Source of the DNA: a virus | IMG/VR virus record: IMGVR_UViG_3300036791_000666 | Span: 1-40,988 of that record | Strand: one strand, 5' to 3' | Length of the DNA stretch: 40,988 nucleotides | Shown: one piece after another, positions 7,005 to 29,430 of the stretch | How positions within the stretch are numbered: the first letter of the stretch is position 1 | Layout: every line of letters begins with the position of its first letter | Made by a program: the position numbers and the translations under genes | Notes under the pieces: generated by a model | Seen by the model: the letters and a program-made list of their open reading frames with translations, nothing else | Told to the model about the DNA's origin: nothing | Database searches by the model: none

Positions 7005-7186
7005 CGAGCGCCGTCCTTCCACCGATCCGGTGCGCACGTGTACCCGCAGATGCCGTCCCGACACGCGGCATCGACCAGTACCCGCACCGGCAAGCCGTCC
7101 TGGCAGATCCGCGTCGGCATCACGCGCAGATGCAGCGCGCACCCGCACGACACACACGCGAGCAGCAACACCACAATCACAGCCAC
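7001..7186 (-). CDS. Small membrane protein or lipoprotein, 61 residues
   Basis: It begins with GTG inside the end of the preceding gene and ends in an ATGA overlap with the next. The first 20 residues are strongly hydrophobic (MAVIVVLLLACVSCGCALHL) and include LLAC, which fits a lipobox, although no basic residue precedes the hydrophobic core. The rest contains four further Cys, including CRDGICGYTC. It could be a lipoprotein of an outer-spanin type or a disulphide-rich periplasmic protein. No spanin partner was recognised. Confidence 0.55.
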   Translation of the reverse strand: MAVIVVLLLACVSCGCALHLRVMPTRICQDGLPVRVLVDAACRDGICGYTCAPDRWKDGAR

Positions 7187-8223
7187 GTGCCATCCACGTT
7201 CATGCCGCCGTTACCATAACCCCACACCTTCGCGTCGGTATGACCCACGTTGTCGATGGTGCAGCACGCGTAATAGCCGCGCTGACTCCCATCATCTTCG
7301 TTGGGGTGTTCTGACCCGGACCCCCACGGGTCTCCCGTGAACTGTTTGATCGCTTGGTCCTCACAGAGCCGGAACTTATGCACCCCGCCCTGCTCACCGA
7401 ACTGTTTCAAGCTGTCCACGATCTTGGCTTGCAGCATCGGCACGTCCCAGCTGGAATCGGCTTGGTAGTTCAGACCGTCACAGTCGGCACCGAGGTCATC
7501 CCAGAATCCGTACCGGCCGCGCGGGTCACCATCGGCAAACCAACTGGTATGTTCCGGATAGAAGTGACACCAGTTACTCACGCCGTAGGGATGCGCGGTC
7601 TGTCCGACCCACTTGACAATGTCGATCGTGGGTGTGCCTGGTACGTTGAAGCTATCCATCTCAAAAGCGGGAATCACTTCGTCCACCACCTTCGCGTCGA
7701 GGAGCGCCATCAACAGCGGCCCGATCCGATCCTGATACTGCTGCGGCGTCATATCGCGCGGGTCGTAGACCTTACTCGCCAACGAGACCACGACGTACGA
7801 CATGCCCAACCGCTTGAGCAATCCGCAGTCGTCCACAAACTTGGGAATCGAGGAATTGCCGCCGATCGGATCCCACAGCGCATTACTCGCCCAGCGGCAC
7901 CAGTGGGTGTACCCACGCGCGCGATGCTGGTTGACCATCTGCGGCCACCAGACATTGCGGTCGTACTTGTAGTCGAGTCCAGTGACCACACGCTCCGGAT
8001 GTTCGCTGCTGCCACCGCTGGGACCACCGGGGACAGCGGGCAATCCCGGACACACGACTGCCCACCAGTCGCCGCGCAAATAGTCGCGCGTATCGGGCGG
8101 TTGCCACGGCAGCACGTGGTCATAGCTCCCCGCTGGCGGCGGGGGAAACGTCCGCACCATCGGCGTGACATCAGACGCCGTGTGGGACCCGCTGCCGAGC
8201 AAAATCACGGAGCCTGCGTTCAC
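7177..8223 (-). CDS. TIM-barrel glycoside-hydrolase-like phage protein
   Basis: The GTG at 8223 (VNAGSVILLGSG) overlaps the upstream stop and follows GGTGGT, giving 348 residues. From about residue 75 the pattern fits an (alpha/beta)8 glycosidase: GLDYKYDRNVWWPQMVNQH, then YVVVSLASKVYDP, then VIPAFEMDSFNVPGTPT, then WCHFYPEHTSWFADGDPRGR and DCDGLNYQAD. The Glu-Met-Asp strand end is a candidate catalytic site. Similar proteins occur in other tailed phages. It may cut a host surface or cell-wall glycan; whether it is in the virion or acts in lysis is open. Confidence 0.55.
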   Translation of the reverse strand: MNAGSVILLGSGSHTASDVTPMVRTFPPPPAGSYDHVLPWQPPDTRDYLRGDWWAVVCPGLPAVPGGPSGGSSEHPERVVTGLDYKYDRNVWWPQMVNQHRARGYTHWCRWASNALWDPIGGNSSIPKFVDDCGLLKRLGMSYVVVSLASKVYDPRDMTPQQYQDRIGPLLMALLDAKVVDEVIPAFEMDSFNVPGTPTIDIVKWVGQTAHPYGVSNWCHFYPEHTSWFADGDPRGRYGFWDDLGADCDGLNYQADSSWDVPMLQAKIVDSLKQFGEQGGVHKFRLCEDQAIKQFTGDPWGSGSEHPNEDDGSQRGYYACCTIDNVGHTDAKVWGYGNGGMNVDGTWL

Positions 8224-8501
8224 TTGACCACCATGCGAAACGCGACAATATGATCCGGTTCGTTCTCGGGGTCGGGTCGATAGACCAGCAGATCCCCGCA
8301 CGGATCGCCCCAGCACCAGGGTGAGTCGGAGTTTTCATCGGGACGCGTGCTGCGAATCTTGCCGCCCGCGCTTTCGGGTTCCACCACCAGCGCGGTCCCG
8401 TCCTCGTTGTAGCAGATCATTTTTCCGGGCTGCGCGACGGAATCCTGATAGCGGCACGCGACCAACTGTGGTTCGTCATCGGTAATCAGAAATCGGTACA
8501 T
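8220..8501 (-). CDS. Hypothetical protein, 93 residues
   Basis: This small acidic protein begins MYRFLITDDEPQLVACRYQD and ends in a strand-like segment (DHIVAFRMVVK). It overlaps its upstream neighbour by one base and its downstream neighbour by a GTGA overlap. It looks like a compact beta domain with two Cys around a WCWGDPCGD loop. I do not recognise it. It is translated with the TIM-barrel-like protein. Confidence 0.65.
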   Translation of the reverse strand: MYRFLITDDEPQLVACRYQDSVAQPGKMICYNEDGTALVVEPESAGGKIRSTRPDENSDSPWCWGDPCGDLLVYRPDPENEPDHIVAFRMVVK

Positions 8502-8911: not shown

Positions 8912-11069
8912 TGAGCCCTACGATCCGTTGCGGCAAATTCGGCGCGCCCGAAATGCGGCCGGTGCCCTTGGCGTGTTCATTGACCGTTTCGGTTTTCGGC
9001 ATCACGCCGGGCTGCGGCGGTTGCCCTGGCGGTGGAGGAGGCGGCGGCTGTGCCCCTGGCTGCGGATTGCCCGGTGTCGGCGTGGTCGGTGGCATTCCTG
9101 GCACCCCCGGCGTCGGCGAAATGGGCGGTGCGGGAATGCCGGTCGCCGTCTGAATCAGCGTGTGCGCCTGCTGAATCATGTCAGGTGTAATCGTCACGCC
9201 GCCCTGGATCATCACGGCCACCGCCAGCGGATTGAGCAGATCCTCGCCCTTGAACGAGAACCCCAGCGTCGGCCGATCGGGTTTGGGCGGTGCCGGTTGC
9301 GCTTTGAGGCGCTGCGGGTCCAGGTGGAGCGCAGGCGCCAGCTCTGAAATCAGATAACTGCGATCGACCAGCGGATCCTTGCCGATGAAGTTATAGGTAT
9401 CGAGCGCCTGCTTGCGCACCGTCGCCTCGTCCAGATCCACGCCGCTATCTGGCTTGATGTCGTAGGCGTACCGCCCGGCAATCGTGAGCCGGTTCCACGC
9501 GGCCCATTGCTGCGCGCCATCGGGTCCCACGATCTGAATCGCGCTGGTATCAGTCGCGAAGCGCTGCAGCAAGCTGTCGAATTTGCGCACGCCCGCAAGA
9601 AAGAACTGGATCACGCGATTGCGCTCCGCTTTGAGCCGCATACTCGCGTTGTTCTGCACCAGGGTCAGTTCGGTCGCCGTCCGGTTGGTCGCATCGGTCG
9701 CGCCCGACTGATTGCTATCGAGCGCAAGCGTTTTGGCGAGCTGGCGTTCGATGCGCGCCTGTCCTTCGTAGTTCTCGCGCGGATACTGCGCACGGGCAAT
9801 TTCCACGATCGGCGGCGGCTCCAGACGCCCCTCCGGGATCGGAATGAAGGCGCCGTAATCGCCGCCAGTGATTTTCTTCATCACATCAGGCGTGATCACG
9901 CCTTCATCGACCAAGCGCATCGGAATCGAGGTATCGCGCTGCTTGACCTGCGTCGTCAGAAACTTCGCCAACTGATCGACCAGATCGCGCGTCATCGAGC
10001 TGTCGGATCGAATGTAGGCGCTGTCGGTCTGGTCGCGAATCGTCAGCACGTGGATCGGACTGCCGATCATGGAATCCGCCGTGAGCCGTCCCTGCGGATC
10101 GAGTGACTGATAGGGCGAATCCATGTGCGTCGCCGGTTGATCGCGCATCCTGTCGATCAGCACCAGCTTGCGCAGCATCTCTGGATGAAAGACCGCCTCA
10201 TCCTCCAGCGACGCGCGGTACCAAATCTCCACGCCGGTGACCAGATCGCGCGTCTTACTCGCCGAGCTGCCTTGACCGCTGGCGTCATCGAAAATGTGCG
10301 TGTCCTCGCTGCTGGTCGCTGAAAAATCGTCCGGGAGCTTGAATTTGCGCTTGGCCGAGAGCAGCGGCATCGAAAATTCCATCCCGAGCCATGGCGCCTT
10401 GTCGAACTGGTTGTCGTAGAAATCGTCGGGAACCAGGAGCTTCTTCGGCGAGAAGTGCTCCCAGAACCACTCCTCATAGACCGGCACGTCGATCGTCTGC
10501 TCGATCGGCGGCTGACCGGGAATCGGATGCGGAATCGACTGACTGACCGGCCGCGTGACCGTTTCGTACCCGATCTTGGTCGCGCCCCAGCCTGCCGGGC
10601 AAAGCACGTCGAAGATCGTTTTGTCCATCATCCGCTTGGCATCCACACCGTTGGGTCCCAGCTTGTCGTTGAGGACCGCCTGCTTGATCAGAATGACGTT
10701 TTCCTGCCCCTGACTCAGCGGTTCCTGCGGAATGCAGTGCACTTCGGGCGTCGCGAAGAACAGCTGCGCCTTTTTCTGCTCGACATCGGCAAAATCGGTG
10801 TTGGGGTTCACCCAGTCGGTACTGGGCAGCTGATCGAGCGGCTTGCCTTCGTAGGCGTCGATGTTTTTCTGCCATTCCTGCTCGACCACTTCGCGCCGCG
10901 CGCGACTCGCCTCGACCCGACTCCACCAAACGCCGATCTGATCGAGCGTCATCGGGATCGCGGTGCCCGTGTCGGGATCGCGGTCCGGGGTGAGCGCGGC
11001 GGGGGAGCCGACCATCGTCGGATCGCCGGTCGGCGGTCCGGGCGGTCCTCCGGGCGGCAGGGGCATCAT
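8904..11069 (-). CDS. Portal protein
   Basis: This 721-residue protein follows the large terminase through an ATGA overlap and a ribosome site (AGAGGTG). After a Pro/Gly-rich N-terminus it has helical parts with WSRVEASRARREVVEQEWQK and the segment DFADVEQKKAQLFFATPEVH, then WEHFSPKKLLVPDDFYDNQF. Later come VDQLAKFLTTQVKQRDTSIP and TATELTLVQNNASMRLKAER, the helix typical of portal cores. A long Pro/Gly-rich tail of about 60 residues precedes the end. Portals form the dodecameric vertex through which DNA is packaged and to which the tail attaches. Confidence 0.85.
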   Translation of the reverse strand: MMPLPPGGPPGPPTGDPTMVGSPAALTPDRDPDTGTAIPMTLDQIGVWWSRVEASRARREVVEQEWQKNIDAYEGKPLDQLPSTDWVNPNTDFADVEQKKAQLFFATPEVHCIPQEPLSQGQENVILIKQAVLNDKLGPNGVDAKRMMDKTIFDVLCPAGWGATKIGYETVTRPVSQSIPHPIPGQPPIEQTIDVPVYEEWFWEHFSPKKLLVPDDFYDNQFDKAPWLGMEFSMPLLSAKRKFKLPDDFSATSSEDTHIFDDASGQGSSASKTRDLVTGVEIWYRASLEDEAVFHPEMLRKLVLIDRMRDQPATHMDSPYQSLDPQGRLTADSMIGSPIHVLTIRDQTDSAYIRSDSSMTRDLVDQLAKFLTTQVKQRDTSIPMRLVDEGVITPDVMKKITGGDYGAFIPIPEGRLEPPPIVEIARAQYPRENYEGQARIERQLAKTLALDSNQSGATDATNRTATELTLVQNNASMRLKAERNRVIQFFLAGVRKFDSLLQRFATDTSAIQIVGPDGAQQWAAWNRLTIAGRYAYDIKPDSGVDLDEATVRKQALDTYNFIGKDPLVDRSYLISELAPALHLDPQRLKAQPAPPKPDRPTLGFSFKGEDLLNPLAVAVMIQGGVTITPDMIQQAHTLIQTATGIPAPPISPTPGVPGMPPTTPTPGNPQPGAQPPPPPPPGQPPQPGVMPKTETVNEHAKGTGRISGAPNLPQRIVGLNE

Positions 11070-12697
11070 GGATGCACCTCTTTGGCACTGTGCCGCCCGA
11101 GAATCAGCCGCTCAGGCCCACGCAGCTCCGAGACCAGCGCGCCAATCGATCCGGGCAGGAACGCCATCGGCATCGCGTGTCCATTGAACCGGCGGCGGGA
11201 CATCGCGCCGTAGCGCAGCGCGTCGAGCGCGTGATCGTCGCCAGCGGTGTCCAGGTCCTCTTCGTTCGTCTTGTCACGCACAGCGGCGGGGATCGTGCGC
11301 GTCAGATACCGGCACGAACGGTCCACCTGCAGCCACGGCCGACCATCCGGGGCGTCCCGCAGCATTTCCTGCAGACGCTGCCAGCCGTTCATCCGGTCGT
11401 TGTTCGATTTGGTGACCGGGACGCCCAGGCGCCCGAAGGTTTCCGCAATCGCTTCGCCGACCTGCCCGTGCCGCTGCCAAATCGCGGGATCCGCCCAGAC
11501 CTGTGGCACTTTCTTGATCCCTAGCGCCTTGGTTTTCTCTTTGATCATCCGCGCGACATCACGCACGGGCGTTTCCTTGAATTTCAGCTCATCAACGACC
11601 AAATAGTGCCCATCAGCGGCGGCGACCCACCACAAACACACGCCCGGCGCATTGAAGCCCCAATCCATCGAGCAGAACCATGTCTGCTGCGCCGGGGTGG
11701 GAATGGTCAGGCTCACCACGTGCTTGCGTTCGTCCCAGGCACCAAACATCTGGCCATCGAACACGCGCCAGTTGCCAAAGCGCAGCTGCTGATAGCGCGC
11801 CGGGTCCAACACGGTGAGCGACTGCTCGTACTCCAGATCGCGGTACGGGTTGTCGTCCAAATTCGCCGGAATAAAGCCCCAATCCTCCGGCTTATAGAAG
11901 GGATAGCGCTCCGCATCGACACGATGGTCGATGAAAAAGTCCAAGACCCAGAGCGCACCGACACCGCCTGGATTGCTGCCTGCTTTCACCATCGCGCGCA
12001 GCCCCGGTTTGGAGGTGCGCGCGCGCGTCATGATTTCCAGCGCGATATCCCGCTCAAAGGTCACCAATTCGTCAAAACCGATCGCGTCGTACTCGGTCGA
12101 GAGGTACTTACTGATCGCGCCGTCGTTATCGCAGTGCCCAAACTCCAGCAGCGACCCGTTGGAGAAGCGCACGACGTGTTCGGAGGTCACCAGCACCGCG
12201 CCCAGCTGCGGCGCTTCGCGCGCGGCCTTGCGGATGTGGGTTTTCTCCAGCTCCGGAAAGGTGCGGCGCAGCAAGAGCGCTTCATAGCCCGGTTGCCGGA
12301 GACACCGGATATAGAGATCCCAGCGCAAGGCGTGCGATTTCCCCGGACCAGCGGCGCCGCCGAAAATCGTGTGCTTGGTCGGCGCTTCGTGAAATTCCAC
12401 CTGTCGTGGCGTCGGGACGTACAAGTAGCTGATGACGCCTTTCGCGTTTTTCTGCTGAATCGCCCACTGAATCTGTCGATCGCGGCAGATTTGGGTCGGA
12501 CACAGAAAAATATTCGGGCCTGCGTCTCGCAGCAGCTCGCCACACCAGCAACACTTCGCGCCGTTCGCCAAAAAGGGTCTCCGGACCAACAAAAAAGGGA
12601 TCGACTGTTCGGCGCGGATGACAAACACGCCGTACAGCGATCCCTTTTCGCTGGTCCCGTTATCGAACGCGCACCGGTCAGGATTTCCGGCTGTCAC
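11066..12697 (-). CDS. terL: Terminase large subunit
   Basis: The protein packages DNA by ATP hydrolysis and cuts the concatemer. Walker A is GGAAGPGKS at residues 113-121 and Walker B is YDAIGFDE at about 203-210, followed by a coupling motif (SNPGG). The nuclease domain shows MDWGF (D345), WADPA (D403) and DDHALDALRYG (about 487). An unusual N-terminal extension carries a zinc-ribbon-like CCWCG and CPTQIC. The first start is GTG at 12697 without a clear ribosome site; a GTG at 12628 after AAGGGA is an alternative and keeps the zinc ribbon. Confidence 0.9.
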   Translation of the reverse strand: MTAGNPDRCAFDNGTSEKGSLYGVFVIRAEQSIPFLLVRRPFLANGAKCCWCGELLRDAGPNIFLCPTQICRDRQIQWAIQQKNAKGVISYLYVPTPRQVEFHEAPTKHTIFGGAAGPGKSHALRWDLYIRCLRQPGYEALLLRRTFPELEKTHIRKAAREAPQLGAVLVTSEHVVRFSNGSLLEFGHCDNDGAISKYLSTEYDAIGFDELVTFERDIALEIMTRARTSKPGLRAMVKAGSNPGGVGALWVLDFFIDHRVDAERYPFYKPEDWGFIPANLDDNPYRDLEYEQSLTVLDPARYQQLRFGNWRVFDGQMFGAWDERKHVVSLTIPTPAQQTWFCSMDWGFNAPGVCLWWVAAADGHYLVVDELKFKETPVRDVARMIKEKTKALGIKKVPQVWADPAIWQRHGQVGEAIAETFGRLGVPVTKSNNDRMNGWQRLQEMLRDAPDGRPWLQVDRSCRYLTRTIPAAVRDKTNEEDLDTAGDDHALDALRYGAMSRRRFNGHAMPMAFLPGSIGALVSELRGPERLILGRHSAKEVHP

Positions 12698-17278: not shown

Positions 17279-17815
17279 TTACGTTTCAGGAGGGAAAATT
17301 CCAGGCGGCTTAGCCGGACGCGGCGCCGGGTCCCTCTCGGGTGTTGCGGCCCCGGCCTTCCCCGCGTGGGACGGTCCTTGTGACGTATCAGTTACGTTGG
17401 CGTCGATTACGACGGATTCATTAGCAATTTCGCGTACATAATCGTTCTCAGATGACGATGGGAGACCCGGCACGCCTGGAGCACCGGCAAAGATGATCGC
17501 GATCGAAGTCTGGCCCTGGAGCTGTACCGGCTCAATCGCCCGGCTGTGCAGCAGGAGGTCCTTCGCCGGACGATGATCGCCTTTCATCGAGGCGATCGGT
17601 ATGGCTTCCATCCAGGCAGCAACAGCGTCCGGCCCGAGCGCCTCCAGCATTGCCTTCGGTGGCGTCTCCAGGAGTTTGACCGTCCGCCGGACCGACGACT
17701 CCGGCATACGTAACAGTCGAGCCAGCTCAGTTGGCGTCAGCTCAGGATGAGACTTTCTCGCGTTCAGGACCGCAATACGGCGCAGCAGCAGATCAGGCGA
17801 TAACGCAGCACCCAT
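17279..17815 (-). CDS. Putative terminase small subunit with N-terminal helix-turn-helix
   Basis: The ATG at 17815 (MGAALSPDLLLRRIAVLNAR) gives 178 residues. Residues 20-50 form a helix-turn-helix (LTPTELARLLRMPESSVRRT). A helical region follows, with KGDHRPAKDLLLHSRAIEPV, a signature seen in small terminases of several phages. It continues to a short strand (TSIAIIFAGAPGVPG) and a Pro-rich tail. Small terminases recognise the pac or cos site and load the large subunit. It is the first gene of the late operon, though distant from terL. An HTH regulator is the alternative. Confidence 0.55.
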   Translation of the reverse strand: MGAALSPDLLLRRIAVLNARKSHPELTPTELARLLRMPESSVRRTVKLLETPPKAMLEALGPDAVAAWMEAIPIASMKGDHRPAKDLLLHSRAIEPVQLQGQTSIAIIFAGAPGVPGLPSSSENDYVREIANESVVIDANVTDTSQGPSHAGKAGAATPERDPAPRPAKPPGIFPPET

Positions 17816-17920
17816 ACGACGCGGGCAGCATAGCGCGCCATCGAATCCCGACCGGTCACCAGGTCGGACAGGTCCGTACACTCAGAGAGCACCCGTCACC
17901 AGGAGCCATGCACTTTCCTC

Positions 17921-17950
17921 TTGACAGCCCTTACACCCCTGACATCTAAT
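17921..17950 (+). promoter_or_regulatory. Sigma70-type promoter for the 18-22 kb operon
   Basis: A perfect -35 (TTGACA, 17921-17926) is separated by 18 bases from TCTAAT (17945-17950). Transcription would start near 17957, inside the operator that follows, so a bound regulator should block it. The leader to the first gene is about 180 bases. Confidence 0.65.
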
Positions 17951-17951
17951 C

Positions 17952-17971
17952 TGTACGGATGTATCCCTACA
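17952..17971. promoter_or_regulatory. Operator-like imperfect palindrome, left control region
   Basis: TGTACGGATGTATCCCTACA is an imperfect palindrome with half-site TGTA(C/G)GGAT. Its right half plus GG (TATCCCTACAGG, 17962-17973) recurs exactly at 28969-28980 in the lysogeny switch. It overlaps the expected start point of the promoter at 17921, so it is likely a repressor site. Confidence 0.6.
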
Positions 17972-18026
17972 GGCTGACAAATGGTTGTAAGGCTGACGAC
18001 TAGCGGATTTTCCTTTGTGGTCAATT

Positions 18027-18035
18027 TGTTAGAAT
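18027..18035 (+). promoter_or_regulatory. Possible second promoter (extended -10)
   Basis: TGTTAGAAT has the TGn extension and a near-consensus -10 (TAGAAT, 18030-18035), but no good -35. It lies beyond the operator and might give operator-independent transcription. Confidence 0.3.
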
Positions 18036-18135
18036 GCTAGAGATTCTCGTAAGATGCCACGGCATACGGCGTGCTACAGAGCAACATGGACCCGGCATGA
18101 TGTCGGGACACCAAGGAACCTGGAGAGGTAACCAG

Positions 18136-18342
18136 ATGTGCAAGAAGCACCAGCTCACCAACGAAGAGTTAACCGCGCTGCTCGATTACGCCACCCGGCA
18201 CGGACGCAATTGGAAGCAGTCGCTTCGCGAGGCCTGGATGGATGCCAGCGAACCCGGCATTCTGCAGCAGCTGCGCAATGCCAGCTATTTTGGCCCGCGC
18301 GGCTTGATCAACTTCGCCGTCGTGCCCAAGGTGAAACGCTAA
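18136..18342 (+). CDS. Small helical protein, 68 residues
   Basis: The ATG at 18136 follows GGAACCTGGAGAGGTAACC, the leader shared by genes in this operon, and is preferred over the longer frame from 18034. The protein (MCKKHQLTNEELTALLDYAT) is mostly helical, with a GRNWKQSLREAWM segment and a LRNASYFGPRGL turn. Its function is unknown. It is first in the operon and overlaps the next gene by one base (TAATG). Confidence 0.7.
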   Translation: MCKKHQLTNEELTALLDYATRHGRNWKQSLREAWMDASEPGILQQLRNASYFGPRGLINFAVVPKVKR

Positions 18343-18686
18343 TGGACGCCCAGACCTTGAAGCGGATCGGCCAGGAGAAAACGATCGTCCGGAAAACGAT
18401 CGCGGCGCTGCAGAATGCCGGGTATCTGTTGAACGTGAACAACGGAGGAGAAGAGAACGAGCTGGCGTACCCGACTGACGGCTATTTCGCAGTCGTTGAC
18501 GCCATGATGCAAGCCGATGACGATCGCCTGTACGTCTACACGAAGGAATCCGCCTTGCGCAATCAGGCGATCGGCTGGATCTGGTTTGTCTACGGTAACG
18601 ACGGCTGGGACGTAGTGTGCGACCACACGACGAACCTGGATCACATCATGGACCCGATCGCGGCCTACACCGATAGCTTGCAGTAG
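18342..18686 (+). CDS. Hypothetical protein, 114 residues
   Basis: It begins at TAATG with the stop of the previous gene. The sequence has a helical start (MDAQTLKRIGQEKTIVRKTI), an acidic loop (NNGGEENELAYPTDG), and a strand-rich centre (WIWFVYGNDGWDVVCDHTTN). This looks like a small alpha/beta domain. No family is recognised. Two hairpins follow its stop. Confidence 0.65.
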   Translation: MDAQTLKRIGQEKTIVRKTIAALQNAGYLLNVNNGGEENELAYPTDGYFAVVDAMMQADDDRLYVYTKESALRNQAIGWIWFVYGNDGWDVVCDHTTNLDHIMDPIAAYTDSLQ

Positions 18687-18699
18687 CGACACGTGCATA

Positions 18700-18745
18700 G
18701 GGCTGGAACCGCTCCAGCCCCTTGCAGGTTTCACTACCTGAAACC
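18700..18745 (+). promoter_or_regulatory. Tandem hairpins in the leader of the gene at 18772
   Basis: Hairpin one pairs GGGCTGGA (18700-18707) with TCCAGCCC (18713-18720). Hairpin two pairs GGTTTCA (18727-18733) with TGAAACC (18739-18745) around the loop CTACC. AGGAACC follows directly, then the ribosome site. The same arrangement recurs at three other leaders of this operon. Confidence 0.6.
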
Positions 18746-18771
18746 AGGAACCGCCAGAGGAGGCGGTAACC

Positions 18772-18966
18772 ATGACCAAGAAGGACTACATCAAATTCGC
18801 CGCCGTACTCGCCGACCAGAAGCCGGACGCCGCCGACCTGCAGTCAGACGCCTATCAGGCGCAGCGCGATCAGTGGATGCAAACGACCGAAGCGATCGCG
18901 GATATCTTCGCCAGCGAAAACGGCCGTTTCGATCGCGAGCGCTTTTATCGCGCGTGCGGCCTGTAA
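18772..18966 (+). CDS. Small phage/mobile-element family protein, 64 residues
   Basis: The sequence MTKKDYIKFAAVLADQKPDA, then IADIFASENGRFDRERFYRACGL, matches the pattern of a small helical protein often found in phages and mobile elements, ending in FDRxRFxxACG. It is preceded by GAGGAGGCGGTAACC. Its function is unknown. Confidence 0.7.
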   Translation: MTKKDYIKFAAVLADQKPDAADLQSDAYQAQRDQWMQTTEAIADIFASENGRFDRERFYRACGL

Positions 18967-18994
18967 CCCCTGGAACCTGGAGAGGTAACCACAC

Positions 18995-19300
18995 ATGAGA
19001 AACTGCCGACCGAATTACGAAGAGGACGATCAGACCTGGAGCGCCGACGCCTACACCGTACGCGGCCACGGAGGCGTCGCCTGGAGAGTGTACGGCTGGG
19101 AGACCGAACCCGACGAGGATACCGAGTGGAGCGGATGCGAGAACCGCACCGGCATGGTGATCTGCGTCATGGTCGGAGACGATCAGCGCTTCACCTTTGA
19201 CCCGGAGGACATCACGCCGATCGATGAGGACACGTACTGCGCCTGCTGTGGGCAAATCGGCTGCAGCTGGGACGGACGCGATCGCAGCGACAGCGAGTAG
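18995..19300 (+). CDS. Acidic protein with C-terminal CxxC motif, 101 residues
   Basis: The ATG follows TGGAACCTGGAGAGGTAACC by four bases. The protein is acidic with many Trp and Asp residues, a strand-rich centre (GGVAWRVYGWE), and a terminal CACCGQIGC cluster that may bind zinc. No known family is recognised. It lies between two hairpin-bearing leaders. Confidence 0.6.
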   Translation: MRNCRPNYEEDDQTWSADAYTVRGHGGVAWRVYGWETEPDEDTEWSGCENRTGMVICVMVGDDQRFTFDPEDITPIDEDTYCACCGQIGCSWDGRDRSDSE

Positions 19301-19313
19301 GTACCGGACGCGG

Positions 19314-19365
19314 CAGTCGCTCAGGTGTCAGGCTTGAGCGACTGACGAGTCTTATACCAAGACTC
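19314..19365 (+). promoter_or_regulatory. Tandem hairpins in the leader of the gene at 19387
   Basis: A perfect ten-pair stem (CAGTCGCTCA 19314-19323 with TGAGCGACTG 19335-19344) is followed by a perfect seven-pair stem (GAGTCTT 19347-19353 with AAGACTC 19359-19365) around the loop ATACC. AGGAACCTGGAGAGGTAACC comes next. Confidence 0.65.
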
Positions 19366-19386
19366 AGGAACCTGGAGAGGTAACCC

Positions 19387-19863
19387 ATGACCCCATTGAC
19401 CAAGACCGACATCATCGCCATGAGAACCGCCGAGCGCGCCTACATTCACATCGACAGCGACAAGAGCACGATCACCTTCTGTAAGCGCTTGCCGCGCGTG
19501 AAGAGCGTCTTTAAGACCGACGACGACAATCGCGATCGGGAGGCGTCGTACGTCCTGGAGGTCGGCGCCTGGATTGGCCAGGACGAGCGCGCGTTTTTTT
19601 CGTGCTGGCGCACCGGGGCGTGGCAGGCGATCGCGCGCATCGTCCGACCAGGAGACACCTTCACGCTCCGCGCGTACCCGAACAATAACCAGTACCTGGA
19701 GCATGCGGGACTCTTCTACGACGAGTGTGTGCTGACGATCAGCCGCATCGACCAGAAAGGACACCGCCGATCGATTGTCGAGGATCTGCTAGTCGGTACG
19801 TCCACCTGCCCGGATAACAGCGCGCGCGCCATTCAGAAGAAGCAGTACACGATCAGCGCCTAG
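19387..19863 (+). CDS. Hypothetical protein, 158 residues
   Basis: The protein begins MTPLTKTDIIAMRTAERAYI and is rich in beta-strand segments: YVLEVGAWIGQDERAFFSCW, DTFTLRAYPNNNQYLEHAGL and ECVLTISRI. It ends in a basic tail. It looks like a compact beta domain. The start is fixed by the leader with GGAGAGGTAACCC. I do not recognise a family. Confidence 0.65.
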   Translation: MTPLTKTDIIAMRTAERAYIHIDSDKSTITFCKRLPRVKSVFKTDDDNRDREASYVLEVGAWIGQDERAFFSCWRTGAWQAIARIVRPGDTFTLRAYPNNNQYLEHAGLFYDECVLTISRIDQKGHRRSIVEDLLVGTSTCPDNSARAIQKKQYTISA

Positions 19864-19877
19864 TGTGCGTCGCGCGG

Positions 19878-19926
19878 AGGGCTGCAGAGGGCTGCAGCCT
19901 TTCGCGGGAACCCATACCGGGAACCC
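19878..19926 (+). promoter_or_regulatory. Tandem hairpins in the leader of the gene at 19949
   Basis: AGGGCTGCA (19878-19886) pairs with TGCAGCCTT (19893-19901), one wobble. The second hairpin is GGG-AA-CCC, loop ATACC, GGG-AA-CCC (19906-19926), with an AA/AA internal loop. AGGAACT and GGAGGAG follow. Confidence 0.55.
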
Positions 19927-19948
19927 AGGAACTCCAGGAGGAGTAACC

Positions 19949-20290
19949 ATGTTCAGAACCATCAGCGCGAAGTATCCCGGCATTTGCCGACGCTGCAACG
20001 GATCGATCTCTGTCGGCGACAAAATGCGGTACGGCGGACCCGGACGCCTGTACCATCTCGCGAAGGATTGCCCGGCGAGCAGTGAGCAGAGCAGCAGCAG
20101 CGACACGCGCGCGGACATCGCCGCCGCCGACCTGGATCACTTGGACGACAGCACCGCCGCCGCCGTCTACAGCAGCAGCCGACGCGATCGGTACGGCTCA
20201 CGGTACACACGCTTCAGCAGCGGTGCCGAGTCGTACACCAACGCGCGCGGCCGATGCGAGGACGCGCCGTGCTGTGGGTGCTGCTCATGA
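19949..20290 (+). CDS. Zinc-finger-like protein, 113 residues
   Basis: The ATG follows AGGAGGAGTAACC. The N-terminal 40 residues look like a treble-clef or PARP-type zinc site: ISAKYPGICRRCNGSISVGD, then YHLAKDC. A Ser/Asp-rich linker follows, then a Cys-rich end (CEDAPCCGCCS). Proteins of this pattern occur in phages and are presumed to bind zinc. Its stop overlaps the next start (ATGA). Confidence 0.65.
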   Translation: MFRTISAKYPGICRRCNGSISVGDKMRYGGPGRLYHLAKDCPASSEQSSSSDTRADIAAADLDHLDDSTAAAVYSSSRRDRYGSRYTRFSSGAESYTNARGRCEDAPCCGCCS

Positions 20291-20508
20291 TCCCCGGAGG
20301 CGATCGCTATCTCATCGTCGCGGCCTACTATCTGGTCGCGTCCGAACATCACAGCGGCCAATGGTCGAAAGGGTACGCGAAGCTGTCGCAGTGTTGCCGG
20401 ATGCAATTCCGGCCCGGACTCGGCAACCTGAGAGACGACGAACAAGTACGCGAACACGCCGCCGCACTCCTGTGGAAACGCCGCCGCGAAATTAGAAGGA
20501 GCTGGTAA
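20287..20508 (+). CDS. Hypothetical protein, 73 residues
   Basis: The ATG at 20287 overlaps the preceding stop (ATGA); a GTG at 20254 in frame is the alternative. The product starts MIPGGDRYLIVAAYYLVASE. It has a helical, moderately hydrophobic N-terminal half and a basic C-terminal helix (AALLWKRRREIRRSW). No family is recognised. Confidence 0.55.
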   Translation: MIPGGDRYLIVAAYYLVASEHHSGQWSKGYAKLSQCCRMQFRPGLGNLRDDEQVREHAAALLWKRRREIRRSW

Positions 20509-20512
20509 CCGT

Positions 20513-20695
20513 ATGGAATTCACGATGACGATCACCGCCGACAATGCCGCCTTCGGAGACAGCGACGCCGAGTGCTGTGCCGAGCTGGCCAGGATCCTCC
20601 GGGAGACGGCCGACAAGCTGGAGTTAGGCCAGGACACTGGCCGACTCCGCGACTACAACGGCAACACCGTAGGCCGCTACTCCGTCGAATCGTAG
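20513..20695 (+). CDS. Small conserved phage-type protein, 60 residues
   Basis: It is preceded by AGAAGGAGCTGGTAACC. The protein has a helix (ECCAELARILRETADKLELG) and the ending LRDYNGNTVGRYSVES. This pattern is familiar from small proteins in phages and integrative elements. Its role is unknown. Confidence 0.7.
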   Translation: MEFTMTITADNAAFGDSDAECCAELARILRETADKLELGQDTGRLRDYNGNTVGRYSVES

Positions 20696-20705
20696 TATGC
20701 GCATC

Positions 20706-20734
20706 AGCCCGGAGGCGGTCAGCGCTTCCGGGCT
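20706..20734 (+). terminator. Intrinsic terminator within the plus operon
   Basis: AGCCCGGA (20706-20713) pairs with TCCGGGCT (20727-20734), with a further GCG/CGC inside, and TTTT ends the stem (20734-20737). A weaker second hairpin (20740-20759) and AGGAACC follow, so this element is also the fourth copy of the tandem-hairpin leader. Confidence 0.6.
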
Positions 20735-20788
20735 TTTGTGGATGCTACGAACGGCATTCAACCAGGAACCCACAGGAGGGTACCCACG

Positions 20789-21262
20789 ATGACACGCAAA
20801 GAAGCGATCCGACAGACGCATCAGGCCGACGTACTGCGCGGTCTCGGCTTCACCGCCGACGAGGCGGAACAGCTGCGCCGCATCTCGATCCGCTTGCACC
20901 ACTGGCACGAACGGGAGTGTGGTGACGGCCATGGCTGTATCGAACGCGACGAGACCACAAACAAAACGTACTGGCTCAATGCCATGACCAGCCGGAGATA
21001 TCCGATCCGCGACCTGGAGACAGGTGCGCGCACGCGACTGGCGCGAATCATTACCGCGCGTAATCAGCGGGCAGTGAGTGCCGCACCGAAACCCGACACC
21101 AGTGCCGCCTACGCGGATGCTGTCACCGCCGCGTACGTGAACGTCGCCGCGTTTGTGCAGACCGATCCGCGCGGTGCTGCACTCTACATCCTCCGGCCCG
21201 GTGATGTGCCGACCGGTGCCGACCCGTCCGCGTACTACAACCGTGGGATCTGCGTTTACTGA
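20789..21262 (+). CDS. Conserved phage/mobile-element protein, 157 residues
   Basis: The ATG at 20789 follows ACAGGAGGGTACCCACG. The protein shows LRGLGFTADEAEQLRRISIR, then LHHWHERECGDG, and a C-terminal AAFVQTDPRGAALYILRPGD with YYNRGICVY at the end. I recognise this pattern from an uncharacterised family carried by phages and genomic islands. The His/Glu/Cys cluster might bind a metal. No function is established. Confidence 0.75.
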   Translation: MTRKEAIRQTHQADVLRGLGFTADEAEQLRRISIRLHHWHERECGDGHGCIERDETTNKTYWLNAMTSRRYPIRDLETGARTRLARIITARNQRAVSAAPKPDTSAAYADAVTAAYVNVAAFVQTDPRGAALYILRPGDVPTGADPSAYYNRGICVY

Positions 21263-21271
21263 GGTGAAGCT

Positions 21272-21472
21272 ATGAGCGCCTGGAAGAACATCAACCCGTA
21301 CCTGCCGAAATTCTGGCTGAAGAACATCCCCGAACAGGTGTGGGAGGACGCCAAGGCGAGAGCGATCGCCGAGTCCCACGACGGTAACCCCCGCATGAAC
21401 GCACTACTGATACACTTGTTGCGCGGATATGTCCGTTACGGACGACCCGCGCTGCCACCGGAGGAGCGATGA
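21272..21472 (+). CDS. Ribbon-helix-helix-like DNA-binding protein, 66 residues
   Basis: The protein has a strand-like start (KFWLKNIPEQVWEDAKARAI) and a second helix (NALLIHLLRGYVRYG). This fits a ribbon-helix-helix repressor, with the strand FWLKNIP in place of the usual DNA-reading ribbon. It may regulate its own operon. The stop overlaps the next gene start by ATGA. Confidence 0.55.
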   Translation: MSAWKNINPYLPKFWLKNIPEQVWEDAKARAIAESHDGNPRMNALLIHLLRGYVRYGRPALPPEER

Positions 21473-21690
21473 CGAACCCACTGGGAGAGATGTTCGCCGG
21501 ACTGCAACAGTCCGCTGCGGGACTGGAACAAGCAACGGAAGGCATCATCCATGCGAACGAAGGACTGCAGCACGCCCTGAAAGCCGCCATCCAGGCACAG
21601 ACCGAGTACGAGGACCTGCGCACGACCGTGCATCGTCTCGAAAATCTCGTCCTGGATCTGATCCATCGACTCCCGCCGACCAACCCGTGA
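21469..21690 (+). CDS. Small coiled-coil protein, 73 residues
   Basis: It is almost wholly helical (MFAGLQQSAAGLEQATEGII, then TVHRLENLVLDLIHRLPP), with heptad-like Leu/Ile/Val spacing. It starts in an ATGA overlap with the ribbon-helix-helix gene and precedes a membrane coiled-coil gene, so the two may interact. No enzymatic motif is seen. Confidence 0.6.
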   Translation: MTNPLGEMFAGLQQSAAGLEQATEGIIHANEGLQHALKAAIQAQTEYEDLRTTVHRLENLVLDLIHRLPPTNP

Positions 21691-21710
21691 CCGACTGGAA
21701 GGAGTAAATC

Positions 21711-21917
21711 ATGGCGCTACGCATGGGCGCGCTATACGATGCGCTGATTCTGGCGAAGGTGCCCGCCGCCGAAGCACAGCGCGCCGCTGAGGAAGTGGCG
21801 ACTTACGAACAGGGCATGAACACCATCAAAGCGGAATTTGCGATCGTGAAGTGGATGCTGGGGACCGTCCTGGTCGTCGTCCTGGCGATTCTGGGACGGC
21901 TGTTGTTCATTCACTGA
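21711..21917 (+). CDS. Membrane-anchored coiled-coil protein, 68 residues
   Basis: Residues 1-48 are helical and charged (VPAAEAQRAAEEVATYEQGM). A single C-terminal membrane segment follows (WMLGTVLVVVLAILGRLLFI). This resembles short coiled-coil proteins with a tail anchor found in phages and bacteria. A strong ribosome site (GAAGGAG) precedes the ATG. Confidence 0.65.
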   Translation: MALRMGALYDALILAKVPAAEAQRAAEEVATYEQGMNTIKAEFAIVKWMLGTVLVVVLAILGRLLFIH

Positions 21918-21927
21918 CACACCCGAC

Positions 21928-21959
21928 CGGACAGGTCCGCACCCGTCGCGGACCTGTCC
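21928..21959 (+). repeat. Perfect 12-base inverted repeat built from CGGACAGGTCCG
   Basis: GGACAGGTCCGC (21929-21940) and GCGGACCTGTCC (21948-21959) form a perfect 12-pair stem with a seven-base loop. No T-run follows, so it is not a classical terminator. Each arm carries the motif also seen at 17865-17876 and 30892-30902. Confidence 0.6.
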
Positions 21960-21988
21960 CCCCACCTGTGCTATTCTTCCCGCTGAAC

Positions 21989-22240
21989 ATGTCTCTGATT
22001 TTCGTGATCCAGAACGACGGCACCGGGTCCAACGAGTGCAGCAACTACGACTGGCGCGTCCTGGTCAACACGTACGAAATTGCCAGCGGCAACGTACGCG
22101 GCCACCGCCGGACTGACGGCTGGCAAGCGCTGATCAAGAAAGCGCTCGACTCCTGCCCATTCGAACCGCGTACGGTGTCGCGCCGCATCGCGCTGCAGAC
22201 GATGCGGCCCCTCTATTCCAACCCCGATCAGGCCCGGTAA
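21989..22240 (+). CDS. Hypothetical protein, 83 residues
   Basis: The ATG at 21989 is chosen because the longer open frame upstream crosses the inverted repeat. The protein (MSLIFVIQNDGTGSNECSNY) has a strand-like start with VLVNTYEIASGNVRGHRR and a helix (GWQALIKKAL). It is the last gene of the plus operon and overlaps the convergent tailspike gene tail-to-tail by 13 bases. The ribosome site is weak. Confidence 0.5.
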   Translation: MSLIFVIQNDGTGSNECSNYDWRVLVNTYEIASGNVRGHRRTDGWQALIKKALDSCPFEPRTVSRRIALQTMRPLYSNPDQAR

Positions 22241-23547
22241 GGCTCCCGGCCAGGAGCGGGCGGCAGGTGCTGCGCGCCCTGGTCCTGGTCGGTAATCGCA
22301 ATCACCGCGTCGGGCATGTACGCCTGCAGCGCCGCCAAGCCTGACCCGCCATCGTTGATCTTGTACGGGTATTCAGACGGCGCCCCCGTCACGTTGAAGT
22401 CTCGCAGCGTGAGTCCGACCGCTGGATCGACCACATAGACGATCGACTGCACACTTGGCCCTTGTGCCGTGAGACGTTCGATGGTGACGTGCTGCGGCGC
22501 ATGGTTCAGGAATACCACCCAGCCCGAGCCGCCATAGCTCGCCGGATTGATATCCTCGACACTGACATCCCGAATGACGACGTTCACCAGCGGCCCACTC
22601 GGATTCGTATCGTCGCGTCCGAGCAGCGAGATCCCCGCACCACCGGTGATGCAGCGGCAGCGTTCGATGAGCACACCGTCGATGCAGCTCCACGGCGCCG
22701 CGCCGTCCTGGTTGCGCGGCGTCAGCACGATCAGGTACCCGCTCTGTCCGCCCGAGGTGCCAGACCACTGCAGCACGCAATCAGTCATCACAAAGCCGAC
22801 GCAGCACTTGAGTTCCAGACTGGTTTTGACATCAAACTTCCCGTACCAGTCGGGGTTCTTCCCCAGGTGACAGCGCTCGACCGTGATCCGTGTGGGCATT
22901 CGCTCTGGGCTGGTACTGTCCGCGCCGCCAAACATCAGCGACTGCGCCGCACCGCCCAGGTACGAGTCCGTGATGAGCAGATCGCGCGTCCCGTCCCAGC
23001 CACAGATCGCCTGCCCGTCGCGCCCCGGCAAGCCGCAGTCATCGACGAACAGATTGACGTACACGCCGTCTTGTCCGTGCGCCAGGATGCCCCTATGCTG
23101 TCCATTGACGACATCGCCCAGGACCAGCAGCCGGTCCAGCTGTGTGCCGATGCCCAGGTCAGTGATCAGCGTGGCCTGCGGGTTGGTGTTGCGCACCGTC
23201 AGCCCGAGCAGCCGCGCACGATCCGATCCGCTCAGGGTGATCGTGGTGTCGCTGGTGTCGGTGATGGTGACCGGATTCCACGCGGGATCGCGTGTGCCGG
23301 TGGGAACGGGCACAGACGGCCGCAAGGTGACCGGCCGCGCCCCGATCGCGAGGTGCCCGGCATACACGCCCGGCTCAATCAGAATCGTCGCGTCTGCCGC
23401 CGCGTTATCGATAGCCGCTTGGATGGACTGACCCGGCGACACCGTAATCTGGCTGGGCGGCAGGGGCGTCAGCCCCGACTCCAGCACCGCTTCCGCTTCG
23501 TGGAGGAGATCGAGCACATGCAGAATTTGCGGATCGTGCAGGGACAT
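22228..23547 (-). CDS. Right-handed beta-helix tailspike or depolymerase-like protein
   Basis: This 439-residue protein has a pectin-lyase-type start at about residue 33 (ITVSPGQSIQAAIDNAAADA, then ILIEPGVYAGHLAI). Repeated beta-helix rungs follow (ITLSGSDRARLLGLTVRNTN, VYVNLFVDDCGL, DLLITDSYLGG, VVIRDVSVEDI). This is the fold of phage tailspikes that cleave surface polysaccharide, and of pectate lyases. Scattered Asp residues could be catalytic but I cannot assign them. It lies at the far end of the early operon, away from the other structural genes, after GAGGGGGTGTT. Confidence 0.7.
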   Translation of the reverse strand: MSLHDPQILHVLDLLHEAEAVLESGLTPLPPSQITVSPGQSIQAAIDNAAADATILIEPGVYAGHLAIGARPVTLRPSVPVPTGTRDPAWNPVTITDTSDTTITLSGSDRARLLGLTVRNTNPQATLITDLGIGTQLDRLLVLGDVVNGQHRGILAHGQDGVYVNLFVDDCGLPGRDGQAICGWDGTRDLLITDSYLGGAAQSLMFGGADSTSPERMPTRITVERCHLGKNPDWYGKFDVKTSLELKCCVGFVMTDCVLQWSGTSGGQSGYLIVLTPRNQDGAAPWSCIDGVLIERCRCITGGAGISLLGRDDTNPSGPLVNVVIRDVSVEDINPASYGGSGWVVFLNHAPQHVTIERLTAQGPSVQSIVYVVDPAVGLTLRDFNVTGAPSEYPYKINDGGSGLAALQAYMPDAVIAITDQDQGAQHLPPAPGREPYRA

Positions 23548-28956: not shown

Positions 28957-28986
28957 TTGACACGGACATATCCCTACAGGTAGACT
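28957..28986 (+). promoter_or_regulatory. Sigma70-type promoter of the XRE/integrase operon
   Basis: TTGACA (28957-28962), 18 bases, then TAGACT (28981-28986). The expected start is near 28993, only three bases before the ATG at 28996, so the transcript should be leaderless or nearly so. Confidence 0.65.
28959..28978. promoter_or_regulatory. Operator overlapping the XRE promoter spacer
   Basis: GACACGGACATATCCCTACA aligns with the left operator at 17952-17971, and its right half with GG is identical (TATCCCTACAGG, 28969-28980). It overlaps the -35 and spacer, so binding should affect transcription of the regulator itself. Confidence 0.6.
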
Positions 28987-28995
28987 CAGCCCTTC

Positions 28996-29430
28996 ATGTA
29001 CACTCCGCCCCAGACATCGTTTTCCGCCGCTATGCGGCTGGCGCGCTACGAGCGCGGCCTGACGCAACGTCAACTGGCTGAACTCACGAAGATGGATAAG
29101 GAGACCATCAACCGCGTCGAAAACGGCGCGAATACCAGCACCGACACGCTGGCGAAAATTCGTGAAGCACTCCCCAACCTCATCATGAGCAGCGAACCGT
29201 ACGTCAACGGCTCATACGCCAAGAGCACACGCGTTTCGGGCCGAGAGAACATCGAGGTGATCGAACTGCGGCAGCGCATCAGCCATCTGGTGCTCGCCGT
29301 GATGTCTGTCAAACACCTGCGCCGTATCGAGACGCAGGTTCTGCACGCGCTGGTTACCCCCGACCGGCACGTTCGAAAACCCGTCACGCGGAAACGTCAG
29401 ACCGCGAAGAAACGGAAGGTCCGCCGCTAA
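28996..29430 (+). CDS. XRE-family HTH regulator, probable lysogeny repressor
   Basis: The 144-residue protein has a lambda-type helix-turn-helix at residues 13-47: MRLARYERGLTQRQLAELTK, then DKETINRVENGANTSTDTLA. A strand-poor central part and a very basic C-terminus follow (KRQTAKKRKVRR). It lacks the peptidase domain of LexA-type repressors. It is co-transcribed with the integrase (TAATG overlap), which fits a lysogeny-side repressor. The ATG is within a few bases of the predicted transcript start. Confidence 0.72.
   Translation: MYTPPQTSFSAAMRLARYERGLTQRQLAELTKMDKETINRVENGANTSTDTLAKIREALPNLIMSSEPYVNGSYAKSTRVSGRENIEVIELRQRISHLVLAVMSVKHLRRIETQVLHALVTPDRHVRKPVTRKRQTAKKRKVRR

Follow-up and report, generated by a model that had tools for sequence, protein, structure and literature searches.

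The window analysed here is the whole of virus record IMGVR_UViG_3300036791_000666, 40,988 bases in length. Because a terminase large subunit, a major head protein, a tyrosine integrase and a repressor-like protein are encoded in it, its source is a tailed and probably temperate phage. A plus-strand operon begins near 18.0 kb, and the ORF of a divergent minus-strand gene begins at 17881. The genes of the operon are short and without known function; they are called early from their position only and are probably early genes. The palindrome GGATGTATCC upstream of the operon is a putative operator-like site, and the same 10-mer occurs four times in the closest large relative of the phage (G002), around its rightward genes. 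A TerL profile search against bacterial genomes found no prophage relative. No promoter-like site was detected within 17800-22300, and the leaders of the operon genes are therefore read as segments of longer transcripts.

Directly before the ATG of six plus-strand genes, 18136, 18772, 18995, 19387, 19949 and 20789, all of which lie outside the structural block, is a short predicted hairpin (H3) with the layout GGA-AC-stem-[loop with Shine-Dalgarno GGA(G)]-stem'-GT-AACC-ATG. The initial annotation had reported a linear string at this place, consisting of AGGAAC, a purine-rich ribosome site and GTAACC. The string is complete before 18136, 18772, 19387 and 19949, with TGGAAC at 18995 and a GTACCC ending at 20789, but it is actually a third hairpin that had been missed. 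The H3 core is ACCT(GGAG)AGGT before 18136, 18995 and 19387 (three exact 19-bp copies), ACCGCC(AGAGGA)GGCGGT before 18772, ACTCC(AGGA)GGAGT before 19949 and ACCC(ACAGGA)GGGT before 20789, giving the four perfectly paired stem forms ACCT/AGGT, ACCGCC/GGCGGT, ACTCC/GGAGT and ACCC/GGGT. H3 is flanked by GGA on the left and AACC (ACCC at 20789) on the right, and the outer GG/CC could also pair, leaving a small internal loop of A on one side and AA on the other. These unpaired flanks (GGA-A and AA-CC) are conserved as much as the stem outline. H3 is contained in both the minimum-energy fold and the centroid of the whole leaders. GGA is found in the H3 loop in 6/6 copies, and the Shine-Dalgarno sequence runs on into the 3' arm. 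The hairpin and Shine-Dalgarno strengths of the four forms are -4.2/-7.1, -6.6/-10.3, -7.8/-10.8 and -11.4/-11.0 kcal/mol, so that stem strength ranks with Shine-Dalgarno strength, a weak relationship given four forms and two measures that share letters. Separately, GGAACCTG and AGGTAACC show identity to the 16S rRNA 3' end, with a p of about 5e-5 for a comparison chosen post hoc.

H3 is carried by the first gene of the operon and by those located after gaps of 85, 28, 86, 85 and 93 nt. The H3-less genes 18342, 20254, 20513, 21272, 21469 and 21711 either overlap their upstream neighbour or begin no more than 20 nt behind it, gene 20513 starting 4 nt past its neighbour.

Table 1 Positions of the phage genes and of the leader hairpins of the plus operon. 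Hairpins are written as 5' arm(loop)3' arm or 5' arm/3' arm.
Feature	Position	Strand	Details
Terminase large subunit	11069-12697	minus	
Palindrome GGATGTATCC	17957..17966	.	Upstream of plus operon
H2 of gene 18136	18091..18107	+	CCCGGCA(TGA)TGTCGGG, 7 pairs including one G-U
H3 of gene 18136	18115..18133	+	GGAACCT(GGAG)AGGTAACC, -4.2 kcal/mol
Gene 18136	18136..18342	+	68 aa, no family match
Gene 18342	18342..18686	+	114 aa, phrog_4158; overlaps preceding gene, no leader
H1 of gene 18772	18700..18720	+	GGGCTGGA/TCCAGCCC; leader z -6.0
H2 of gene 18772	18727..18745	+	GGTTTCA(CTACC)TGAAACC, 7 pairs
H3 of gene 18772	18747..18771	+	GGAACCGCC(AGAGGA)GGCGGTAACC, 6 pairs, -11.4 kcal/mol
Gene 18772	18772..18966	+	64 aa, no function assigned
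H3 of gene 18995	18972..18990	+	GGAACCT(GGAG)AGGTAACC; 28-nt gap, no H1/H2
Gene 18995	18995..19300	+	101 aa; orthologues in nine other viral contigs
H1 of gene 19387	19314..19344	+	13 pairs
H2 of gene 19387	19347..19365	+	GAGTCTT(ATACC)AAGACTC, 7 pairs
H3 of gene 19387	19367..19385	+	GGAACCT(GGAG)AGGTAACC
Gene 19387	19387..19863	+	158 aa, phrog_27970
H1 of gene 19949	19871..19906	+	About 15 pairs
Weak second hairpin of gene 19949	19911..19921	+	CCC(ATACC)GGG, 3 pairs only, from folding
H3 of gene 19949	19928..19948	+	GGAACTCC(AGGA)GGAGTAACC, 5 pairs, -6.6 kcal/mol
Gene 19949	19949..20290	+	113 aa, phrog_5664
GGTAACC before gene 20513	20504..20510	+	No hairpin; inside end of gene 20254
H1 of gene 20789	20706..20734	+	GCCCGGAGGCG/CGCTTCCGGGC, then TTTGT; weakly terminator-like
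H2 of gene 20789	20739..20760	+	TGGATGC/GCATTCA, 7 pairs including one G-U, loop TACGAACG
H3 of gene 20789	20765..20785	+	GGAACCC(ACAGGA)GGGTACCC, -7.8 kcal/mol
Gene 20789	20789..21262	+	157 aa; orthologues in L011-L014
Repressor-like protein	at 28996		
Tyrosine integrase	at 29430		

Upstream of H3, two consecutive hairpins (H1 and H2) had been annotated before genes 18772, 19387, 19949 and 20789. The whole leaders of these genes have fold z-scores of -6.0, -4.2, -4.0 and -4.4, respectively, against dinucleotide shuffles, and those of 18136, 18995 and 20513 are not outstanding by the same measure. Folding supports the tandem arrangement at all four genes, but at 19949 the second hairpin has only 3 pairs. 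H2 has 7 pairs and a different sequence each time at 18136, 18772, 19387 and 20789. The (A/C)TACC loop reported for three leaders was recovered, although its copy at 19949 sits on a very weak stem. The annotation had also described shared leader parts at three further genes, and these are indeed present: gene 18136 has a 7-pair H2 (CCCGGCA/TGTCGGG), gene 18995 has the 3' part only, and gene 20513 retains GGTAACC only. The statement that stems differ while pairing is kept holds best for H3, with its four paired forms and the arm swaps described below. The stems of H1 and H2 differ as well, but their sequences are unrelated and are not aligned homologous positions, so that H1/H2 show hairpins recurring from gene to gene and not covariation. 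Pairing of the H2 UACC loop with the GGUA of H3 was also considered and discarded as too short (4 bp in two leaders and 3 in one).

The concentration of H3 at the six starts was evaluated with a fixed descriptor, which required at least 4 Watson-Crick pairs, GGA or AGG within a loop of 4-7, and an end of the hairpin 2-13 nt upstream of the start. Of the 12 starts of the operon region, 6 have H3, compared with a mean of 0.36 and a maximum of 4 in 2000 dinucleotide-shuffled versions of the 40-base stretches examined, and H3 was found at none of the phage's 32 other gene starts. When the letters between the fixed AC/GT were shuffled, the four forms gave p = 0.035, 0.002, 0.011 and 0.058 (product 6e-8), and arms drawn from the genome composition gave a product p of 4e-7 for the four forms. 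Moreover, no combination of an arm with the opposite arm of another form retains all of its pairs. The pairing tests consist of these arm swaps and the descriptor scan, MAFFT giving no alignment of stems of unequal length. The outer AC/GT pairs are invariant and therefore uninformative on pairing either way, and the number of independent forms is four, since one of them occurs in three identical copies. A genome-wide scan for an H2+H3 composite returned four operon genes and one spurious ORF. Shuffled windows gave 0-4, so that this count is not beyond chance by itself; the significance lies in the concentration at true starts of one operon. Because the H3 sequences differ between copies yet still pair, the fold of H3, rather than its letters, seems to have been kept.

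The exact 19-mer of H3 has no match in IMG/VR. A looser pattern, GGAAC..GGAG..GTAACCATG, gave 65 matches there, mostly one recurring coding stretch, and these were rejected as chance matches since 58 of the 65 carried only the fixed AC/GT pairs. In G002, whose TerL shows 83% identity over the best segment, the flanks are syntenic, but the plus operon is without H3. A k-mer search for repeated leaders among relatives found via TerL and gene 20789 detected nothing comparable. All nine orthologues of gene 18995 (59-73% identity) lack the H3 leader and the four orthologues of gene 20789 have other leaders, indicating that the leader does not travel with the genes; for genes 18342 and 19387 no relatives were found. 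Within the searched records, which may leave out records very near this phage, the H3 element thus appears to be private to it. In addition, no Rfam family matched the window at the gathering score, and a lax threshold returned a chance microRNA match only (E 0.83).

For the function of these leaders, we give an even chance to a structured ribosome-binding site that acts mainly by itself on translation initiation of the probably early genes. The leaders would then be copies of a repeated translation-initiation module, whose operative part would be H3, with its 4-6 pairs directly before the start codon. The loop of H3 would expose GGA(G), with the remaining Shine-Dalgarno sequence held in the 3' arm, and the 30S subunit may nucleate on the loop and then open the stem to finish pairing. 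Since the stem must be opened by the 30S subunit, its strength would set the initiation rate, and the strength ranking over the four H3 forms is as expected of a tuned site. H1 and H2, in the gaps of 85-93 nt, would stop the RNA of the upstream cistron from refolding onto the ribosome site, and may also mark cleavage or pausing points. Such insulation, cleavage or pausing would give each gene its own translation set-point inside one transcript. We infer that H3 forms in the cell and governs translation, and that H1 and H2 play the part described.

The conserved unpaired flanks are needless for a purely structural device, which points to recognition by something, and their invariance would be compatible with one protein binding to every one of the six leaders. 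H3 could in that case be a common translational operator: a single RNA-binding protein, of phage or host origin, would recognise the invariant internal loop (GGA-A / AA-CC) together with the GGA loop and switch all six genes at once, in the manner of T4 RegA on its mRNAs or of CsrA on GGA loops. This is a possible but rather doubtful explanation. It would account for invariant flanks around a varying stem, for GGA in every loop and for an element common to several genes of one operon, and there is a precedent in T4 RegA, which binds at or adjoining the AUG of about 30 mRNAs (PMC3014915). No candidate binder was identified, however, the operon genes are without known function, and a search for the CsrA family gave no match in the phage, although matches were obtained in control genomes. 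The H3 loops appear to lack the full CsrA consensus: compared with an ACANGGA-type loop, GGAG, AGAGGA, AGGA and ACAGGA contain GGA only. A DUF3310 search also gave no phage match, its control being uninformative. Alternatively, the presence of GGAG in 6/6 leaders is consistent with a RegB-like endoribonuclease that cuts the loop GGAG and silences the mRNAs later in infection. We regard such cleavage as very unlikely: the strong-site consensus GGAGRAYARAA is absent, sites in secondary structure are as a rule protected against RegB (PMC3014915), and a search for RegB (PF10715) gave no match in the phage, though none in control genomes either.

The two other explanations place selection outside H3 or outside RNA. 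If H1 and H2 were the selected features, serving in inter-cistron RNA processing, stabilisation or attenuation, H3 would be a by-product of duplicated leaders. The strong hairpins, with leader z-scores of -4 to -6, and the T-rich sequence after H1 of gene 20789 agree with this, but a terminator scan did not flag H1 or H2. In addition, H3 is present without H1/H2 at gene 18995 and its pairing survives sequence changes, both of which argue against a by-product, and we consider this explanation unlikely. The three exact 19-bp copies and the occurrence of one element per gene boundary might instead reflect repeats acting as DNA, either as sites for a DNA-binding protein or as recombination boundaries between gene cassettes. 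Sites of this kind would hardly be expected to differ in their stems between copies, to contain G-U pairs in H1/H2, to be locked in position to the start codon, or to be missing from orthologous genes elsewhere, making a DNA-level role highly improbable.

Control of many mRNAs through their initiation regions is known for T4 RegA/RegB and CsrA/RsmA, with GGA or GGAG being key for RegB and CsrA; H3 appears to lack the binding consensus sequences, and no RegB or CsrA relative was found in the phage, the RegB search having given no match in control genomes either. The closest known element to H3 is the Start-Associated Sequence (SAS) of cluster K and cluster EF phages, which H3 resembles in placement, gene choice and geometry without being a member by sequence. 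Cluster K mycobacteriophages contain 11-19 copies of the 13-bp SAS GGGATAGGAGCCC at the ribosome sites of right-arm genes (PMC3203893), and Microbacterium phages of cluster EF carry their SAS, GGGAAAGGACCCC, in the same position (PMC7302621). The authors of the cluster K study noted the symmetry GGGNNNNNNNCCC, observed that positions outside the Shine-Dalgarno sequence are conserved with no reason in 16S pairing, and discussed and doubted mRNA hairpins for ESAS repeats (PMC3203893); the role of SAS was still termed ill-defined in 2024-2025 (PMC11373665, PMC12699233). The cluster K SAS and H3 are both repeated in one orientation, next to ATG, at the ribosome sites of some of the non-structural genes. 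The cluster K SAS genes have mostly ATG starts and mostly larger upstream gaps, and as with H3 the conserved flanks extend beyond the Shine-Dalgarno sequence. With respect to the SAS gap of >50 bp, four H3 genes lie at 85, 86, 85 and 93 nt, one is a first gene and gene 18995 lies at 28 nt. In contrast, the consensus GGGATAGGAGCCC, allowing up to 2 mismatches, is found in 0/6 leaders, whose core is GGAAC-stem-[SD]-stem'-GTAACC, and SAS copies in cluster K are nearly invariant whereas the H3 stems vary. The Extended SAS (ESAS), in which a SigA-like promoter upstream of the SAS lies between 17-bp inverted repeats, was not seen, there being no promoter-like site within 17800-22300, and the H1/H2 sequences are unrelated in each copy.

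The cluster K SAS consensus could itself fold as GGG(ATAGGAG)CCC, although marginally (-1.9 kcal/mol), and the cluster EF SAS could form the same 3-pair stem with a 7-nt Shine-Dalgarno loop (GGG-[7 nt with SD]-CCC). The latter belongs to an unrelated phage, its sequence is unlike that of H3, and its stem is invariant but for one change. Some cluster EF copies follow an intergenic hairpin, and several copies in the cluster K phage Aminay also lie behind strong intergenic hairpins. The descriptor scan, given no SAS sequences as input, recovered the Aminay SAS as CGGG(ATAGGAG)CCCG, and one Aminay site has a rebuilt 6-pair stem, TCGGCC(ATAGGAG)GGCCGA. Across 11 cluster K genomes, wherever both members of the outermost pair have changed and the remaining stem is intact, the change is compensatory; this applies to about three independent sites, with CGG/CCG in Pixie and in Thyatira and OkiRoe, and TGG/CCA in Kratio and Collard. 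Single uncompensated changes of this pair are nevertheless commoner than compensatory ones in the same genomes, and positions adjoining the cluster K SAS do not pair above chance (14/118 versus 19.3 expected). Stem pairing in the cluster K SAS is therefore no more than suggested.

We tentatively propose that the SAS-type elements of three unrelated phage lineages, namely the present phage, cluster K and cluster EF, may form one convergent class, a short hairpin with the Shine-Dalgarno sequence in its loop, in which the conservation of SAS outside the Shine-Dalgarno sequence would reflect the stem. The present phage is the informative case for such a class because its stems vary. Knowledge of SAS dates from 2011, and the phages that carry it are in wide use as tools; what H3 would add is a start-associated ribosome-site repeat that keeps its fold and not its letters. 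The H3 copies represent a natural, graded series of ribosome-site hairpins of a single design, whose varying stems with kept pairing allow a direct test of stem versus letters in translation.

The palindrome GGATGTATCC (or GGACATATCC) lies upstream of the plus operon of short genes and again near the gene for the repressor-like protein at 28996, and four copies are present in G002, the closest large relative. It is likely a repressor operator common to the two phages.

Within the repeated leader, GGAACCTG and AGGTAACC exactly match two pieces of the 16S rRNA 3' end in the helix 45 region (E. coli 16S as reference). Two 8-mers came up jointly in 5e-5 of shuffles, for a comparison picked after the fact. 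The leader of gene 20513 contains GGTAACCGTA, a 10-base match. L011, a relative carrying an orthologue of gene 20789, has two copies of a separate leader of its own, in which a hairpin with variable stems (GGCG/CGCC vs GCCCC/GGGGC) is followed immediately by AGAGAGCAGGA and then the start codon.

In relatives L004 and L007, the 439-aa gene adjoins the homologue of window 7177-8316, whereas in the window it is distant from that place, reflecting either a moved gene or a rearranged record.

Coordinates of features in the window and other phages
Feature	Location	Remark
Palindrome	17957-17966	upstream of plus operon
Palindrome	28964-28973	near repressor gene
Palindrome	L015, near 10414, 11349, 11363, 12165	
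Leader stretches in 16S match	18115-18133, 18972-18990, 19367-19385, 20504-20513	
L011 leader	9560-9580, 9985-10003	
Gene 20513	20513-20692	
439-aa gene	22228-23547	minus
439-aa gene counterparts	L004 5589-6872; L007 4601-5881	
Aminay sites	L082, near 6346, 7586, 8980, 9764, 10042	

The end of gene 19949, encoding a Cys-rich motif (window 20239-20290), shows 88% identity over this short stretch to genes of several Mycobacterium phages. Homologues of gene 20513 occur in Gordonia, Brevundimonas and Ruegeria phages, and as gene 83 of Mycobacterium phage Aminay, a gene that has a copy of the Start-Associated Sequence (SAS), the ribosome-site repeat of cluster K mycobacteriophages. Several SAS copies in Aminay have a 5' hairpin with the loop AATCCC, which is complementary to GGGAT, SAS bases 1-5; the loop could pair with the SAS.
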